A DNA stretch of 37,430 nt, taken from positions 1 through 37,430 of the forward strand of contig DVID01000021.1 in NCBI GenBank assembly GCA_018711625.1, in the 5' to 3' direction. This DNA is from Candidatus Limicola stercorigallinarum (GTDB lineage: Bacteria > Actinomycetota > Coriobacteriia > Coriobacteriales > Coriobacteriaceae). A program made the position numbers and the translations under genes. A model generated the notes under the pieces. That model made no database searches. It was not told where the DNA came from and was given only the letters and a program-made list of their open reading frames with translations. Of the stretch, positions 10,209 through 17,893 are shown in pieces. Positions within the stretch are counted from its first letter, which is position 1, and every line of letters starts with the position of its first letter.

Positions 10209-11129
10209 CTACGACCTTTCTATATACGCCTGAATGGCATCCACCGCATCGTCACGGCTCAGCTCATCCATATCAAGCCATATAATGCGCGCATCGCGCT
10301 TAAACCACGAGAGTTGGCGCTTCGCATAATTGCGCGAACGTTGTTTGATGCGTTGAATGGCCTCGTCGAGGGAACATAGTCCCCCAAGATAGTCGTAGAG
10401 CTCCTTATAGCCTATTGCTTGCCGCGAAGTAATGGCGTCTGCACAACCAGCGCTTACCAACTGTTCGACCTCATGAAGGAGGCCCTGGGCGAGCATTCCG
10501 TCAACACGAGCATCAATGCGCTCATAGAGCCGCGAACGCTCTCGCGTAAGACCAAAGTAGAGCGCGTGATAATGCTCGGTCGGCGTACTGAAACGCTCTT
10601 TCTGGCGTGCGTATGAAACGCCTTCGTCATGCATTTCAAGTGCACGTACAACACGTCGTACGTTATGGGGGTGTATACATGCAGCACTTTCAGGATCTAC
10701 CTGAGCGAGCAAGGCGTGGATTCCCTCAGCCCCCAGTTCTTCAGCAAGCTCCTGATAACGCGAGCGAGAAGGAGCCTCCACATCTCCTGCTGGAAACGAC
10801 ATCTCGTCAAGAGCCGCCCGGAGGTACAGGCCCGTACCTCCACACAGGATGGGAAGAGTCCCCTTACCAAGCAGCCGGTCAATCTCACGACGTGCGTCGC
10901 GTTGGAACAGCGCCGCAGAATACGATTCTTGCGCGTCAACCACATCTATCAGCACAAGAGGCGCCTGGCGCTCTTCAGGCGGCATTTTACCGGTGCCAAT
11001 GTCCATACCTCGATACACTTGCATCGCGTCAGCAGAGATGACCTCAGATCCTAAACGCCGTGCAAGTTCATCGGCAACATCGCTTTTGCCAACGGCTGTA
11101 GGGCCAACAATCGCGACTGCTTGGATCAT
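10209..11129 (-). CDS. miaA: tRNA dimethylallyltransferase MiaA
   Basis: MiaA adds a dimethylallyl group to N6 of A37 in tRNAs that read UNN codons, giving i6A, which is the substrate of MiaB. The protein has 306 residues from the chosen start. The P-loop is GPTAVGKS (residues 9-16) and the conserved DAMQVYRGMDIGTGK (34-48) forms the tRNA and DMAPP pocket. The start chosen is ATG 11129, whose ATGA overlaps the miaB stop. A GTG at 11165 would add 12 residues with no family resemblance. Together, miaB and miaA form a complete ms2i6A pathway in one operon, MiaA acting first although miaB is transcribed first. Confidence 0.96.
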   Translation of the reverse strand: MIQAVAIVGPTAVGKSDVADELARRLGSEVISADAMQVYRGMDIGTGKMPPEERQAPLVLIDVVDAQESYSAALFQRDARREIDRLLGKGTLPILCGGTGLYLRAALDEMSFPAGDVEAPSRSRYQELAEELGAEGIHALLAQVDPESAACIHPHNVRRVVRALEMHDEGVSYARQKERFSTPTEHYHALYFGLTRERSRLYERIDARVDGMLAQGLLHEVEQLVSAGCADAITSRQAIGYKELYDYLGGLCSLDEAIQRIKQRSRNYAKRQLSWFKRDARIIWLDMDELSRDDAVDAIQAYIERS

Positions 11130-12496
11130 CGAGGTTCGCCCGCAACCGTACCCGAGAGATACCACGTGCGTGCACGGTCAATATGCACGTCTACCATGCG
11201 GCCAACCAACCGCTCAAGATCCCAATGGGCAGGGATGGGAGCATGAACCGTTTGGTTCTTAGGGCTCTTGCCCTGCAGCACATGACTGTCCTTCTTAGAG
11301 ATGCCCTCAACAAGCACCGGCACAACACTATCAAGCTCGTGCTGGTTGAAAGCATAGGCGGTTTGCTCAATCACCTTCACCAGGCGGTCAAAACGGTCCT
11401 GGATAACCGAGCGCGGCGTGGGGTCGTCAATCTTAGCGGCAGGTGTTCCAGCACGCTTGGAGTAAATAAACGTAAACGCTTGCGAATACCCCACGTGCTC
11501 AGCAAGCGAAAGCGTCTGAAGAAAATCTTCCTCAGTCTCTCCGGGGAAGCCCACGATGATATCGGTTGTAAGCGCAATACCGGGGATCTTTTCACGCACC
11601 TGATCAACAAGCGCCAGATAATCCTCGCGCGTGTAGCGACGGTTCATCTGTTTGAGCACGCGCGTTGAACCCGACTGAACAGCAAGATGGAGGTGAGGCA
11701 TGACGGAGGGGACCTCAGCCATCGCATCAATGGTCTCAGGCAAAAGATCCTTAGGATGAGAAGAGGTGAAGCGAATACGCTCAATACCCGTATCACCCAC
11801 ACGGCGCAGCAACTCAGCAAAACGAGGAGCGCCGTAGTTGTCGCGGCCATAGGAGTTGACGTTTTGCCCGAGCAGCGTAACCTCACGCACGCCCGCCCGA
11901 ACAAGCCCTGTCACCTCATCGATGACATCCTCCATAGGACGGCTCTTCTCACGCCCACGCACATAAGGAACAATACAGTAGCTGCAGAAATTGTTGCAGC
12001 CGGTCATAATGGGCACCCATGCGTGGAACGGAACCTCGCGATGCCAAGGAAGCGAAGTGGCATCATCGTTGGCATCTTCGGGCGTAAGGAACGTACGCTC
12101 CTGCTGACGACGCGAACGAGCGATGAGTTCTGCAACATGGCCAAGAACATGCGTGCCAAAAACCACATCAACGTTGTCGAGATTGGTGAGGAGGCCCTCA
12201 CCGTCACGCTGGGCAATGCATCCGCCCACCGCTATGGTACGCCGACCCGAGGGAGGATTGGGCAGACTCTTCATTGAGGAACATTGACCATAGAGTCGCT
12301 GATCGGCAGCCTCACGAACACAGCAGGTCATGAACACCACGATATCAGCCTCAGCTGGTTCCGCCGCCTCAAGGCAACCATACGACTCAAGCAGACCGCT
12401 CACACGCTCTGAGTCGTGCAAGTTCATCTGGCACCCAAAGGTGCGGATGAAATACGTGAGCCCGGAAAGCTCCTCGCGAAGCGATACCTCGTTCAA
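11126..12496 (-). CDS. miaB: tRNA-2-methylthio-N6-dimethylallyladenosine synthase MiaB
   Basis: MiaB is a radical-SAM methylthiotransferase that converts i6A37 to ms2i6A37. The 456-residue protein has an N-terminal UPF0004 domain with cluster cysteines Cys22 (FGCQMN), Cys58 (MTCCVRE) and Cys93 (GGC). The radical-SAM motif CNNFCSYC contains Cys167, Cys171 and Cys174, followed by PYVRGREKSRP. A TRAM domain ends the protein. The start is TTG 12496, with AGGAGG 4 nt upstream; no ATG is available in the right place. Eight bases separate it from spoVS. It is one of three methylthiotransferases in the window. Confidence 0.97.
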   Translation of the reverse strand: MNEVSLREELSGLTYFIRTFGCQMNLHDSERVSGLLESYGCLEAAEPAEADIVVFMTCCVREAADQRLYGQCSSMKSLPNPPSGRRTIAVGGCIAQRDGEGLLTNLDNVDVVFGTHVLGHVAELIARSRRQQERTFLTPEDANDDATSLPWHREVPFHAWVPIMTGCNNFCSYCIVPYVRGREKSRPMEDVIDEVTGLVRAGVREVTLLGQNVNSYGRDNYGAPRFAELLRRVGDTGIERIRFTSSHPKDLLPETIDAMAEVPSVMPHLHLAVQSGSTRVLKQMNRRYTREDYLALVDQVREKIPGIALTTDIIVGFPGETEEDFLQTLSLAEHVGYSQAFTFIYSKRAGTPAAKIDDPTPRSVIQDRFDRLVKVIEQTAYAFNQHELDSVVPVLVEGISKKDSHVLQGKSPKNQTVHAPIPAHWDLERLVGRMVDVHIDRARTWYLSGTVAGEPR

Positions 12497-12504
12497 AATG
12501 CCTC

Positions 12505-12825
12505 CTAGTCAGATACCCGAGCAGAACCAAACACGTCAGCCCCATCAACGGGATATGCTGAAAGATGGTGTACGTACACAGAAAGACGAATAGCGGTGCG
12601 CGATTCCCCATTGATAAGAATGTCGGAGAAAATGGGCGCACATGAAATATCAAACCCGGTAGGAATCAAAAAACCGCGCGCTATAGCCACCGCTTTAATG
12701 GCCTGATTCACCGCGCCCGCGCCAACACACTGCATGTTGACGGGCACGCCATCTTTGACCATGCCAGCAATGGCGCCCGCAACCGATGCGGGTGATGACT
12801 TGCTCGATACTTTGAGGTAATCCAT
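12505..12825 (-). CDS. spoVS: Stage V sporulation protein S homologue
   Basis: SpoVS is a small Alba-like protein that in Bacillus influences septation and sporulation. The 106 residues begin MDYLKVSSKSSPASVAGAIA, followed by VNMQCVGAGAVNQAIKAVAIARGF, the well-conserved family core. The homologue is longer than the typical 86 residues, with about 20 extra C-terminal residues (VDGADVFGSARVSD-type tail). The start follows AGGAG with 8 nt spacing. Its neighbours are the GHKL ATPase and rny upstream and miaB downstream, as in Bacillus, where rny-ymdB-spoVS is the order. A role in sporulation is unlikely in this lineage; nucleic-acid binding is the plausible function. The 86-bp gap upstream shows no clear promoter. 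Confidence 0.9.
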   Translation of the reverse strand: MDYLKVSSKSSPASVAGAIAGMVKDGVPVNMQCVGAGAVNQAIKAVAIARGFLIPTGFDISCAPIFSDILINGESRTAIRLSVYVHHLSAYPVDGADVFGSARVSD

Positions 12826-12911: not shown

Positions 12912-13994
12912 TCATTCGTCCTTGTTAATGTGGAAGGTAACGGTGACCTTGTCCCCCGCAACACGAATACTGGGGTCACCCGTCAAGGTGAGAAAATAAC
13001 GCTCGGCAAGCTCGTTGAAATCCCGCTCCAATGCACGCGAGAACTGCTGCAGGTCTTCGCGAGCAATACGCAAACCCCGACGATCGCGCGAAAGATCAAC
13101 TGCCTTGGGCCCTGCCGGCTCTTCGCGCAGGCGCAACATCCGCGCCGTAGCGCTTCGCTGCGGTTTAATAGCGCCCGACAAAATGCGATGTGCTGAGCGT
13201 TCAGAAATATCAATGCCTAAGGCATGTGCCACCTCAATAAACTCCGCAGCATCATTGGCATACCCTAAACGATCAACAACCGGAAGCTCTTCTGCCTGAT
13301 CGATAAACAGGAGCCGCGACGCATCTAGCCGCGAGCGCGCCTGCATGTACATCGTGGCAGCAATCTCGGTAGGACTTCCCAGATAAACATTACAGACACG
13401 TCGCTCCTCAAGCGAAAACTCGCAAGCGCAGCGAATGATATTGTGAGGTCCACGAACGCATTCGTAGGTGCCATCTTCAGTTTTGGCAGCCTGAGGCCAG
13501 GTGGACTGATCGGCACGCTCAGGAAGCTCATCAAGATCAACGACAACCCGAAACGCCGAACCGAGTCCAGGGGCAGATGACACAACATAGGCCTCACGCG
13601 TGTTCTGCTTCACCGAGAAAAGCGCCATGCCGCGCCCATGAACGCCCCATCGATCCATCTTCATCGATTCAAGCTTTGAGGTGACACGCGCGTCAAAAAT
13701 ACGCTCGTGCATATCAGACGGAATGCCACAGCCGTCATCGAAGAAAAGGAGGGTGCGAACACCCTCCTCCTTTGATGTTGCTAGATAAATATTGGCAGCA
13801 CCGGCATCACGCGCGTTGCGCAGCATTTCGATAACGATATCCTCAACATGCTGAATGTCATGCTTTGCCTGACGACGCTCCGCCTCAGCAACACGAAGAC
13901 GAACAAAGCCCTCACCAAGATTTTCCTCAACGCGAAGGTTTGACTCGCCCGACATAGACGCAATGAATGAGATGAGATCGTTGGTATCGTTCAT
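12912..13994 (-). CDS. GHKL (Hsp90/MutL/histidine-kinase-type) ATPase of unknown role
   Basis: The 360-residue protein has an N-terminal GHKL ATP-binding domain. The N box is IVIEMLRNARDAG with Asn60, the G1 box is DDGCGIP (86-92) and the G2 box is GVHGRGMAL (117-125). The domain contains THSKL-like spacing typical of stand-alone ATPases rather than a sensor kinase. No histidine phosphoacceptor, receiver or membrane segment is visible. About 200 C-terminal residues are unrecognised, with several Arg-rich helices (ERSAHRILSGAIKPQRSATARMLRLRE in two parts). The start chosen is 13994, one base after the rny stop (TAGCATG), so it is tightly coupled to rny. In Bacillus this position is held by the phosphodiesterase gene ymdB. 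A role in RNA turnover or cell-cycle control is inference. Confidence 0.6.
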   Translation of the reverse strand: MNDTNDLISFIASMSGESNLRVEENLGEGFVRLRVAEAERRQAKHDIQHVEDIVIEMLRNARDAGAANIYLATSKEEGVRTLLFFDDGCGIPSDMHERIFDARVTSKLESMKMDRWGVHGRGMALFSVKQNTREAYVVSSAPGLGSAFRVVVDLDELPERADQSTWPQAAKTEDGTYECVRGPHNIIRCACEFSLEERRVCNVYLGSPTEIAATMYMQARSRLDASRLLFIDQAEELPVVDRLGYANDAAEFIEVAHALGIDISERSAHRILSGAIKPQRSATARMLRLREEPAGPKAVDLSRDRRGLRIAREDLQQFSRALERDFNELAERYFLTLTGDPSIRVAGDKVTVTFHINKDE

Positions 13995-13995
13995 G

Positions 13996-15546
13996 CTACT
14001 TGGCGACTCCAACGGCACGGCTCTCGCGGATAACTACGACCTTCACCTGGCCGGGGTACTCCATCTCTTCCTCGATCTGGTGTGCGATATCGTGGGCAAG
14101 AACAACCGACTCGGCGTCAGAGATCTTGTCCGGCTGAACCATGACGTGCACCTCGCGGCCAGCTTGCATGGCGTACGTGCGCTCCACACCCTCGTGAGCA
14201 TTTGCGATCTCTTCGAGCTTCTCGAGACGCTTGATATACGTCTCGGCGGATTCACGACGGGCACCCGGACGGGAAGCAGAGATGGCATCTGCGGCCATAA
14301 CGAGTACAGCCAAGACCGAAGATGGATCAACGTCACCGTGGTGTGCCTCAATAGCGTGGACAATGGCGGGTTTCTCACCATACCTGCGCGCAAGATCGGC
14401 ACCAATGACGGCATGCGGGCCCTCAACCTCATGGTCGATAGCCTTGCCCAGGTCGTGCAACAAGCCAGCGCGACGTGCAGTTACCGCGTCGAGACCAAGC
14501 TCGGAGGCCATGATGCCGCAGAGCTCCGCAACCTCACGCGAGTGCTGAAGAACATTCTGGCCAAAAGAGGTACGGTAACGAAGCGCGCCCAAGGTCTTGA
14601 TAAGCTCAGGATGCAGGTCGTGAATACCCGTATCAAACGCAGCCTGCTCGCCCGCCTCGCGAACGCGCTGTTGCACAAGATTGGCAGCCTTCTGATACAT
14701 CTCCTCAATGCGGGCTGGATGAATACGACCGTCGGCAATGAGATTCTCAAGGGCAACACGAGCCGTCTCGCGACGAACCGGATCAAAGCTCGAAAGCACA
14801 ACAGTCTCCGGCGTATCGTCAATAACAAGATTCACACCCGAAACCTGTTCGAAAGTGCGAATGTTGCGTCCCTCGCGGCCGATGATGCGGCCCTTCAGGT
14901 CGTCTGAAGGGATGTGGACCGACGTAACGGTAACCTCAGCGGTATGATCAGCCGCCAGACGCTGAATAGCAAGCGAGATAACGCGCTGAGCGGTCTTTTG
15001 GCACTCCGCCTTCACACGCTGCTCAGACTCACGGATGATAGCGGCCGCCTCGTGCGTGACATCACCACGCACCCGATCAAGTAGCTCCTTATGAGCATCG
15101 TCGCGGGAAAGCTCGGCGATGCGCTCGAGCTCAGCCGTCTGCTGCACATAGAGGCCTTCAAGCTCGCGGCTGCGCTTCTCAACCTGACCAGCTTGGCTGG
15201 AGAGCTGATGCTCGCGCTTATCGAGTGCATCATTACGACGATCAAGAGACTCCTCGCGCTGCATCACACGATTCTCAAGAGCGCGAAGCTCGCGCTTGCG
15301 CTGCTTCTCCTCAGCCTCGGCAGCCTGCTTGTTTTGAATAATCTCCTCTTTAGCCTCGAGAAGAGCTTCTTTCTTAAGTGTCTCTGCCTGGCGCTGCGCG
15401 TCGTCAATAACCTGAGATGCCTGCGCACGTGCCGACTCAAGCTGAGCATCGGCTTCGCGGAGGCTTCCCTGTTTCGACGAGCGCATGACGATAACGGCGA
15501 CAATTGCGCCGATGACCAGGCCAATGGCACCGATCACAATCTCCAT
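13996..15546 (-). CDS. rny: Ribonuclease Y
   Basis: RNase Y is the membrane-bound endoribonuclease that starts mRNA decay in many Gram-positive bacteria. The 516 residues begin with a single transmembrane anchor ([17 protein letters not shown], about 5-21). A long charged coiled coil follows to about residue 195. A KH RNA-binding domain contains [17 protein letters not shown], and the HD hydrolase domain has the metal-binding pair in [14 protein letters not shown] plus IEAHHGD. GGAG precedes the ATG. Its own promoter, TTGACA-N17-TAGGAT, lies upstream, separating it from recX. The GHKL ATPase gene follows after one base. Confidence 0.97.
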
Positions 15547-15699: not shown

Positions 15700-15728
15700 A
15701 TCCTACGTGTTAGATTGCATACTGTCAA
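15700..15728 (-). promoter_or_regulatory. Promoter of rny
   Basis: A consensus -35 TTGACA (15728-15723), a 17-bp spacer and -10 TAGGAT (15705-15700) point toward rny. This implies a leader of about 145 nt. The 273-bp gap between recX and rny holds no convincing gene. A 6-bp inverted repeat (CACGCA and TGCGTG) just after the recX stop is too weak to call a terminator. Confidence 0.6.
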
Positions 15729-15819: not shown

Positions 15820-16515
15820 CTATAGAAGCTGATCGGTATCGTTAGCGAGACGCTCCTTTACGGCATCGGAAGCAGCCCCATAGGAGAAGCCCTTACCCAT
15901 AAGATGCTTCACCAGTTTTTCGAATGCACGCGTTTCTGGAATGTGCTTGCGAGCGAGCACGGCACGGGCACGCTCCACCTCATCATCAACTGAGAAAAAA
16001 TCATCAGGGTAGCCGGGGATAGCATCGACATCCACACCCTTATGTCGAAGCTCCTGCTCAATCTTGCGTCTCCCCCACCCACGTGCTTTACGAGATGAGA
16101 CAAATCGTTGTGCGAAGGTGGCATCATTCAGGTAGCCATACGATTGGGCACGAGTAATGGCGCTCTCAACAGAAGAGGGAAAGTAGCCTGCGAGCGAGAG
16201 CTTGCGCGAGGCCTCATCGATGCTGTGATCACGCCGCGATAGCATCTCGATTAGCACGGCCATGCACGTGCGCTCCTCCAAACCTAAGAGAAGGGCACGT
16301 GCATGCTCGAACAAACAGGGAAGCTCAGGCTCGTCCTGAGCAAACAGACGAGCAACACGAACGGGCACGGTGTACGTAATCTCGCGCTTTGAATCGAGCG
16401 TCATGACAATCGTGGCCCGCGGGCGCTTTGCCTGAGGGCTCATCGCATACGCCGAGCTCCGCTTCTCGGGAAAAGTGATTGCAATAGCAACCACCTCAGC
16501 CATTTGCGTATCCAT
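15820..16515 (-). CDS. recX: Regulatory protein RecX
   Basis: RecX modulates RecA filaments. The 231-residue protein is made of three-helix repeats: LLIGLEERTC-like helices (about 75-100), then LSRRDHSIDEASRKLSLAGY, AQSYGYLNDATFAQRFVSSRKARGWGRRKIEQELRHKGV (quoted parts YLNDATFAQ and GRRKIEQELRHKG are diagnostic) and a C-terminal repeat with KHLMGKGFSYGAASDAV. The N-terminal 70 residues are less conserved. The start is 5 bp after the recA stop, as in most bacteria, and it should be co-induced with recA during SOS. ATG at 16503 is an alternative start because no Shine-Dalgarno is obvious. It is followed by a 273-bp gap containing the rny promoter. Confidence 0.93.
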   Translation of the reverse strand: MDTQMAEVVAIAITFPEKRSSAYAMSPQAKRPRATIVMTLDSKREITYTVPVRVARLFAQDEPELPCLFEHARALLLGLEERTCMAVLIEMLSRRDHSIDEASRKLSLAGYFPSSVESAITRAQSYGYLNDATFAQRFVSSRKARGWGRRKIEQELRHKGVDVDAIPGYPDDFFSVDDEVERARAVLARKHIPETRAFEKLVKHLMGKGFSYGAASDAVKERLANDTDQLL

Positions 16516-16520
16516 AGGTC

Positions 16521-17609
16521 TTACTGTTCAGTCTCTTCAAGCAGAACTGCATCTCCGGTAGGCTCATCGGAAAGCTCAAGACCACAGGCAACGCGCACGC
16601 GATGCTCAATCTCTTCAGAAAGGTCGGGGTGCTTGCGCAGAAACTCTTTTGCTGCCTCACGCCCCTGACCCAGGCGCTCCGCGTCATAGGTATACCAGGC
16701 GCCCGAGCGCGTCACAATGCCATAGTCAACTGCCATGTCGATAATCGAGCCCTCCTTAGAGATGCCCGTACCATACATGATGTCAAACTCGGCGGTTTTG
16801 AAGGGGGCTGCAACCTTATTCTTTACGACCTTACAGCGTACACGGCTACCAACAATATCGGAACCAGACTTAATGCTGTCGATACGACGAATATCGATGC
16901 GCACCGTCGAGAAGAACTTGAGTGCGCGGCCACCCGTAGTTGTCTCGGGGTTGCCAAACATCACACCGATCTTCTCACGAAGCTGGTTAATGAAGATGCA
17001 CGTGGTATTGGACTTCGCAAGAGAACCAGCCAGCTTGCGCAGCGCCTGGCTCATAAGACGTGCCTGAAGGCCGACCGTCGTGTCGCCAATCTCGCCCTCA
17101 ATCTCGGCACGCGGCACGAGCGCCGCCACCGAGTCGATAACAATGGCATCAATGGCGCCCGAGCGAACCAGCATGTCACAAATCTCGAGTGCTTGTTCGC
17201 CCGTATCGGGCTGAGAAATAAGCACTTCATCGATATCGACACCAATGCGCGCGGCATAGGCCGGATCAAGCGCATGCTCGGCATCGATGAAGGCAACAAC
17301 ACCGCCAGCCGCCTGTGCCTCGGCAAGGATTTCAAGCGAAAGCGTTGTTTTACCAGAAGACTCAGGGCCATAAATCTCAATGATGCGCCCGCGAGGAACG
17401 CCGCCAATGCCCAGTGCCGCGTCGAGCGCCAGAGCACCCGTAGGAATGGCCTCAATCTCAAGCTCGGGACCGCCATCACCAAACCGCATGATGGATCCCG
17501 AACCAAACTTTTTCTCAATCTCGGCCTTAGTGGCCTCAATCATTTTGTCGCGCTCTTTACCCGTAGTACGCTCATGAATCACGCGGGCGGGAGCGTTGTT
17601 TTTTGCCAT
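16521..17609 (-). CDS. recA: Recombinase RecA
   Basis: RecA forms ATP-dependent filaments on single-stranded DNA for strand exchange and induces LexA self-cleavage. The 362-residue protein has Walker A GPESSGKT (81-88), the hydrolysis glutamate in IDAEHALD, Walker B in [12 protein letters not shown], loop L1 in [18 protein letters not shown], loop L2 including [14 protein letters not shown], and the QLREKIG element. The chosen start, 17609, has AAGGAGG with 5 nt spacing. An upstream in-frame start at 17696 crosses the promoter and LexA box and is rejected. It is expressed from its own SOS-controlled promoter and cotranscribed with recX. Confidence 0.99.
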
Positions 17610-17633
17610 AAGAGCCTCCTTAGCATCACCATA

Positions 17634-17662
17634 ATAGTAGGCGAACAGCTGTTCGCCGTCAA
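17634..17662 (-). promoter_or_regulatory. Promoter of recA
   Basis: TTGACG (17662-17657), a 17-bp spacer and TACTAT (17639-17634) form a strong promoter on the minus strand, with the start codon 25 bp downstream of the -10. The rest of the 284-bp gap to cinA shows nothing else convincing. Confidence 0.85.
17642..17655. promoter_or_regulatory. LexA box of recA
   Basis: CGAACAGCTGTTCG, a perfect 14-bp palindrome, fills almost the whole recA promoter spacer. It matches the boxes at lexA. Confidence 0.96.
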
Positions 17663-17893
17663 GCGAGCTACAGGAATCATACTGAGGTAATCTCATCTAT
17701 ATGATGACAATCGGTCGCGAAAGCGTCCCAAAATCTCACCGCGGGCAGAACACCTGGAACCACGGGCAATCATGCAGTGCACAACGAGATAAACGCGCCG
17801 TTCAGACCCTATTTAAACACTGAGTCAAGCGAAACGTATCACGAAGTCACCTGTCATTGATGAGGGAACCCAGGAGCACGGCCGGGCGCATAC

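Follow-up and report, generated by a model that had tools for sequence, protein, structure and literature searches.

A MutL-type ATP-binding module with a conserved C-terminal region encoded directly downstream of rny in Actinomycetota

In many bacteria the decay of mRNA begins with RNase Y, whose known regulators come from work on Bacillota. The window analysed here, a whole stretch of 37,430 nucleotides from the coriobacterium Candidatus Limicola stercorigallinarum, carries an ATPase gene directly behind the RNase Y gene rny. To our knowledge, the MutL-type ATPases have so far been known for DNA, chaperone and signalling work. A literature search (subscription journals and preprints lay outside its scope) found no paper on this ATPase family, and the gene is easily overlooked because its RefSeq name is 'ATP-binding protein' only.

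Gene order around the ATPase gene

The following features of the window are required for the description of the locus:

11126-12496, minus strand: miaB (UPF0004, radical SAM and TRAM domains; name taken from a syntenic Collinsella record)
12505-12825, minus strand: spoVS (PF04232, 117 bits)
12912-13994, minus strand: uncharacterised GHL-type ATPase gene, 360 amino acids (open reading frame and translation; class-wide alignment A1)
13996-15546, minus strand: rny, RNase Y (TIGR03319, 707 bits, cut-off 454)
15700-15728, minus strand: promoter-like site upstream of rny (consensus scan only)
15820-16515, minus strand: recX (RecX_HTH2, 50 bits, cut-off 26)
16521-17696, minus strand: recA (position; homologues in syntenic loci and a named record)

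The ATPase open reading frame starts with ATG at 13994, and exactly one base (13995) separates it from the rny stop codon, as the first-pass annotation had stated; an alternative in-frame GTG at 14018 would make the gene overlap rny. A site scan found no terminator-like site between the two genes, which is consistent with their co-transcription. The promoter consensus scan returned 5 sites against 2.2 expected, and no RNA element of the window reached an Rfam gathering score. Profile searches of the other neighbours identified RecX as well as MiaB- and MiaA-type domains. The SpoVS protein of the window comprises 106 residues, about 20 more than the 83-position family model, and carries a C-terminal extension.

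Among named relatives of the ATPase, the best match is from Collinsella sp. An2 (79%), followed by that from Enorma phocaeensis (76%), which places the window in a Coriobacteriaceae genome. In the annotated syntenic Collinsella record the genes recA, recX, rny, 'ATP-binding protein', spoVS, miaB, miaA and hflX all point the same way, and there, too, a single base separates rny from the ATPase gene. The gene order had also been described as close to that of Bacillus, which holds with two differences: in B. velezensis YmdB (TIGR00282) fills the slot between rny and spoVS, but recX is missing there, with a different gene standing between recA and rny, and tdh and a glycine C-acetyltransferase gene separate spoVS from miaB. 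According to the accessible text of PMC5030255, rny and ymdB form one operon in B. subtilis, so the slot after rny is in use in both phyla, by unrelated proteins.

The ATP-binding module and the C-terminal region

The following segments were delimited within the protein:

13815-13829, minus strand: N box, E56-x-x-x-N60 (76-sequence alignment; aligns with E and N of MutL)
13725-13739, minus strand: G1 box, D86-D-G-C-G90 (D86 in 75/76 sequences with one gap, G90 in 76/76)
13620-13688, minus strand: lid and G2 box, RVTSKL...WGVHGRGMAL, residues 103-125 (TSK aligns with TSK of MutL)
13530-13859, minus strand: GHKL ATPase domain, residues 46-155 (Pfam HATPase_c above cut-off; 39/39 relatives match)
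12915-13523, minus strand: C-terminal region assigned to no family, residues 158-360 (no significant database match; modelled at mean pLDDT 89.5)
13179-13250, minus strand: HTH-like helix-turn-helix, residues 249-272 (helices in both models; sub-threshold winged-helix matches)

The Pfam models HATPase_c (38.1 bits, cut-off 26.4, residues 46-155) and HATPase_c_3 (30.5 bits, cut-off 25, residues 50-130) both matched the N-terminal half, and the N box ExxxN, the G1 box DxGxG and the G2 box HGRG are invariant in 39/39 class members of the alignment; these boxes, together with the curated HATPase_c match, place the protein in the GHKL ATPase superfamily. Among 76 sequences from across the phylum, position 56 is E in 74, Q in one and a gap in one, N60 is conserved in 75 with one gap, and T105 is T in all of them. 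The HGRG of the G2 box is invariant outside family f36, a deep lineage in most of whose members it reads HGAG. A glutamate placed four residues ahead of the N-box asparagine, as found here, is the mark of hydrolysing GHL ATPases.

A profile built from the 39 class members ranked MutL (4.1e-8) and Mlh1 (1.4e-5) at the top of the solved chains, with ExxxN and TSK in register, and one kinase, CckA, appeared among the matches at 0.0048. Structure prediction was confident for the whole protein (mean pLDDT 85.6) as well as for its C-terminal region. Its ATPase domain was closest to MutL in the VIA comparison (Z 13.1, 150 aligned, rmsd 4.0), whereas Foldseek ranked histidine-kinase ATPase domains first (E 1.8e-5). 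Identity as a histidine kinase was rejected, as Pfam detected no HisKA-type dimerisation or phosphoacceptor domain in the ATPase or its 39 relatives; the sole histidine conserved across the family (75/76) is H119, located in the lid. Taken together, the ExxxN and TSK motifs and the best sequence matches point to an ATPase of the hydrolysing MutL type rather than a kinase, with hydrolysis predicted.

The likeness to the N-terminal ATPase of MutL, Mlh1 and PMS2, which supplied the top solved-chain profile match and the best VIA row, has its bounds: the sequence alignment spans only about 85-100 residues, the C-terminal domain of MutL was not matched, and the gene adjoins that of RNase Y. Among the best 25 of 34 NCBIfam matches no model reached its cut-off, and the top one, MutL (TIGR00585), stood at 29.1 bits against a cut-off of 180, which leaves the protein outside that family.

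Pfam found nothing beyond residue 155, and for residues 158-360 there was no significant match in Pfam, PHROG, PDB sequences or Foldseek. The best PDB profile and Foldseek matches to this region both had E 0.37, and the best VIA match reached Z 5.1 over 54 residues. The S5-fold transducer domain with its catalytic basic residue, expected of GHL ATPases, was looked for in the C-terminal model, which matches no fold significantly. Weak winged-helix rows over residues 206-280 (VanR, DhdR, GntR, ArgR, Pax6, NsrR, MCM; Z 2.0-2.8), all of them sub-threshold, give only a hint of a winged-helix or HTH-like segment. Within this segment S264 is conserved in 76/76 sequences and R266 and R270 in 75/76, forming an SxRxxxR element. 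The first-pass annotation, which had read three intact nucleotide-binding boxes, no phosphoacceptor histidine and an unrecognised C-terminus of about 200 residues, agrees in all these points with the profile searches and structure prediction, and the first of two findings named beforehand as counting against it, a strong similarity to some established family of unrelated function, did not come to light.

Distribution of the gene and its linkage to rny

In Coriobacteriia 294/296 genomes gave a match at E<=1e-3, of which 293 were counted, the match in G125 (1.2e-4) being too weak; the two genomes lacking one were G163, which is 99% complete, and G041, which is 59% complete. In a sample of the Eggerthellaceae-type family f3 the gene was present in 58/60 genomes, and both misses, G163 and G305, belong to one genus (g36) and keep rny as well as spoVS. 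About 230 bases lie between rny and spoVS of G163, and no gene remnant was found in them. These two genomes have thus lost the ATPase gene while retaining rny and spoVS. The fetched stretch from recA to rny in the same two genomes (L229, L230) held no credible RecX match.

Across the phylum sample the gene was detected in 160/396 genomes (E<=1e-20) and rny in 264/396; both were present in 157, rny only in 107, the ATPase gene only in 3 and neither in 129, counts that are not independent observations because the genomes are related, for which reason the accompanying Fisher value does not represent a probability. The three genomes with the ATPase gene only are 67-79% complete, and in each of them a contig end truncates the gene on the side where rny would lie. 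A search of 80 of the 107 rny-only genomes with a profile including f36, run without a positive control, found no divergent copy at 1e-10, and neighbourhood inspection of 20 rny-only loci found no copy adjoining rny. Sampling beyond Actinomycetota covered 15 plasmid-collection records with rny, among which, at tblastn sensitivity, the Collinsella record alone carried the gene. The gene is thus near-universal in Coriobacteriia and also occurs in other actinobacterial lineages; a GHKL ATPase after rny is not a local oddity, as many actinobacteria carry one.

A plasmid gene was rejected as its identity, the single match being located in a 0.9-Mb Collinsella replicon that bears the chromosomal block, and so was a phage origin, as the 14 pattern matches examined included no relative from a viral contig. 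A Nonomuraea record labelled plasmid contains an RNase Y match with 54.5% identity (L240, NZ_LT559118.1:3118203-3119480) in unannotated surroundings.

The second finding set beforehand as speaking against the annotation, a lack of linkage to rny in relatives, did not occur wherever the fetched contig reaches far enough. In the class loci, which include repeats of some genomes from two overlapping collections, rny lies directly upstream on the same strand in 136/136, with a gap of 0-30 nt in 124/136, and spoVS lies downstream in 134/136. In the phylum, rny lies upstream in 36 of the 37 fetched loci (L167-L204 minus the void L200), and the remaining one, L183, stops at a contig end. All 12 loci of family f36 show recA-recX-rny-GHKL-miaB-miaA-hflX, in either orientation, without spoVS, and SpoVS was absent from all seven tested f36 genomes carrying the ATPase gene, which ties the gene to rny rather than to spoVS. 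The pair of rny and the ATPase gene therefore stays constant while lineages vary in spoVS, ymdB and spacing. Our data thus show that, in much of Actinomycetota, the gene directly following rny encodes a MutL-type ATP-binding module joined to a conserved C-terminal region; by sequence the protein represents an unnamed, predicted GHL ATPase family whose link to RNase Y is solely one of genomic context.

A possible role beside RNase Y

The ATPase probably acts with RNase Y in RNA breakdown or processing, and we modestly favour a dedicated ATP-driven cofactor of this enzyme, the basis of this reading being all genomic context. ATP would be bound and hydrolysed through E56 and N60. The GHL ATPases, such as gyrase, Hsp90 and also MutL, dimerise upon ATP binding, and by this analogy binding of ATP may close a dimer of the present protein. 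Its C-terminal region, with the HTH-like SxRxxxR element, might hold RNA or RNase Y, and the ATP cycle would open and close the resulting clamp, thereby delivering substrates to RNase Y or controlling its activity. If this holds, RNA decay would be energy-coupled by a MutL-type ATPase encoded directly after rny, and the clamp reading would assign to a GHL ATPase a place in RNA decay. RNase Y can work without the ATPase, as indicated by the 107/264 rny genomes devoid of the gene and by its loss in g36.

Dedicated RNase Y cofactors have been described in the Y-complex of B. subtilis, where RicA and RicF deliver RicT, and the accessible text of that report (PMC10470536) names no ATPase. The RicT family is shared with Coriobacteriia: PSP1 (RicT) was present in 38/39 class genomes, whereas Com_YlbF, the RicA/RicF family, was found in 0/39, which leaves room for another loader and makes an ATP-driven cofactor plausible. 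This gap is no proof, since the control genomes, Thermus, Deinobacterium, Bacteroides and Thermotoga, likewise have PSP1 and no Com_YlbF, so that an ATP-driven loader is not a necessity for RicT. The ATPase itself shows no sequence relation to these cofactors, with no Com_YlbF or PSP1 match in Pfam. That it works as an ATP-gated, MutL-like clamp loading RicT or RNA onto RNase Y, an actinobacterial answer to the RicA/RicF shuttle, would be a speculative extension, and we regard it as quite unlikely in this specific form.

The closest known parallel to a GHKL ATPase encoded next to a nuclease is provided by the prokaryotic MORC and paraMORC proteins, which, as far as the accessible text of PMC2292703 goes, are encoded beside nucleases in restriction-modification operons and possess a conserved C-terminal extension of their own. 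Those systems are sporadic, whereas the gene considered here is near-universal in its class and adjoins an RNase gene; the helicases, methylases and endonucleases of MORC neighbourhoods are replaced in the examined loci by recA, recX, rny, spoVS and miaB. A defence function was rejected, PADLOC having returned only a weak REase_II match (E 0.008, 12.6 bits).

Adjacency alone could reflect inherited order, since the whole block from recA to miaB is conserved. Hence the ATPase might be an operon passenger with an unrelated role, either in DNA repair or regulation with RecA and RecX or in tRNA modification with MiaB and MiaA, kept in place by conservation of the block, within which miaA is conserved too. 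The best sequence relatives, the mismatch-repair MutL proteins, would suit such a role, and so would the tree-distance correlation (Spearman), which is highest with MiaB (0.94, 50 loci) as compared to RNase Y (0.87, 59 loci); as the MiaB value is at least as high, co-inheritance is not specific to RNase Y and reflects the whole block. Nevertheless, none of the 160 genomes with the ATPase gene clearly lacks rny, whereas 129 genomes lack both, and in L082 and L083 the pair of rny and the ATPase gene is kept although the fetched stretch showed no other neighbour of the query. We consider a passenger unlikely, though it is the foremost of the alternatives to an RNase Y cofactor.

It is improbable that the protein is a stand-alone signalling or regulatory ATPase that acts on SpoVS or, by way of its HTH-like element, on gene expression. 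The downstream spoVS of nearly all class loci and the conserved SxRxxxR would fit, but the f36 genomes carry the gene without SpoVS, other lineages keep rny and spoVS without the gene, and every HTH match fell below threshold. The first-pass annotation had proposed a partner in RNA decay or of SpoVS; its former half gains from the linkage to rny, while a SpoVS partner is weakened by f36.

That the protein might stand in for YmdB where ymdB was lost is very improbable and largely refuted: it does occupy the TIGR00282 slot of Bacillus, as the annotation had noted, and its own genome has no TIGR00282 match, but 43/160 genomes with the ATPase gene contain TIGR00282 as well, against 27/107 rny-only genomes, so that the presence of one says little about that of the other and replacement is rejected; YmdB is moreover a phosphodiesterase to which no sequence relation was seen, TIGR00282 being absent from the best 25 of the 34 NCBIfam matches.

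Other proteins were observed at the corresponding place in lineages without the ATPase gene. Directly after rny, two of them encode proteins of about 309 residues and of no clear family (L208:3817-4743, L210:3741-4667), which weakly resemble DUF4878 near their C-terminus. In several actinobacterial lineages lacking the ATPase gene, a PHP-domain protein resembling RNase RNM or 3',5'-nucleoside bisphosphate phosphatase (152-202 bits, below the cut-offs) is encoded between rny or spoVS and miaB (L205:3493-4359, L209:5112-5975, L211:2062-2988, L213:6896-7765, L222:6082-6924), and this protein is possibly another RNA-decay enzyme in the same slot.
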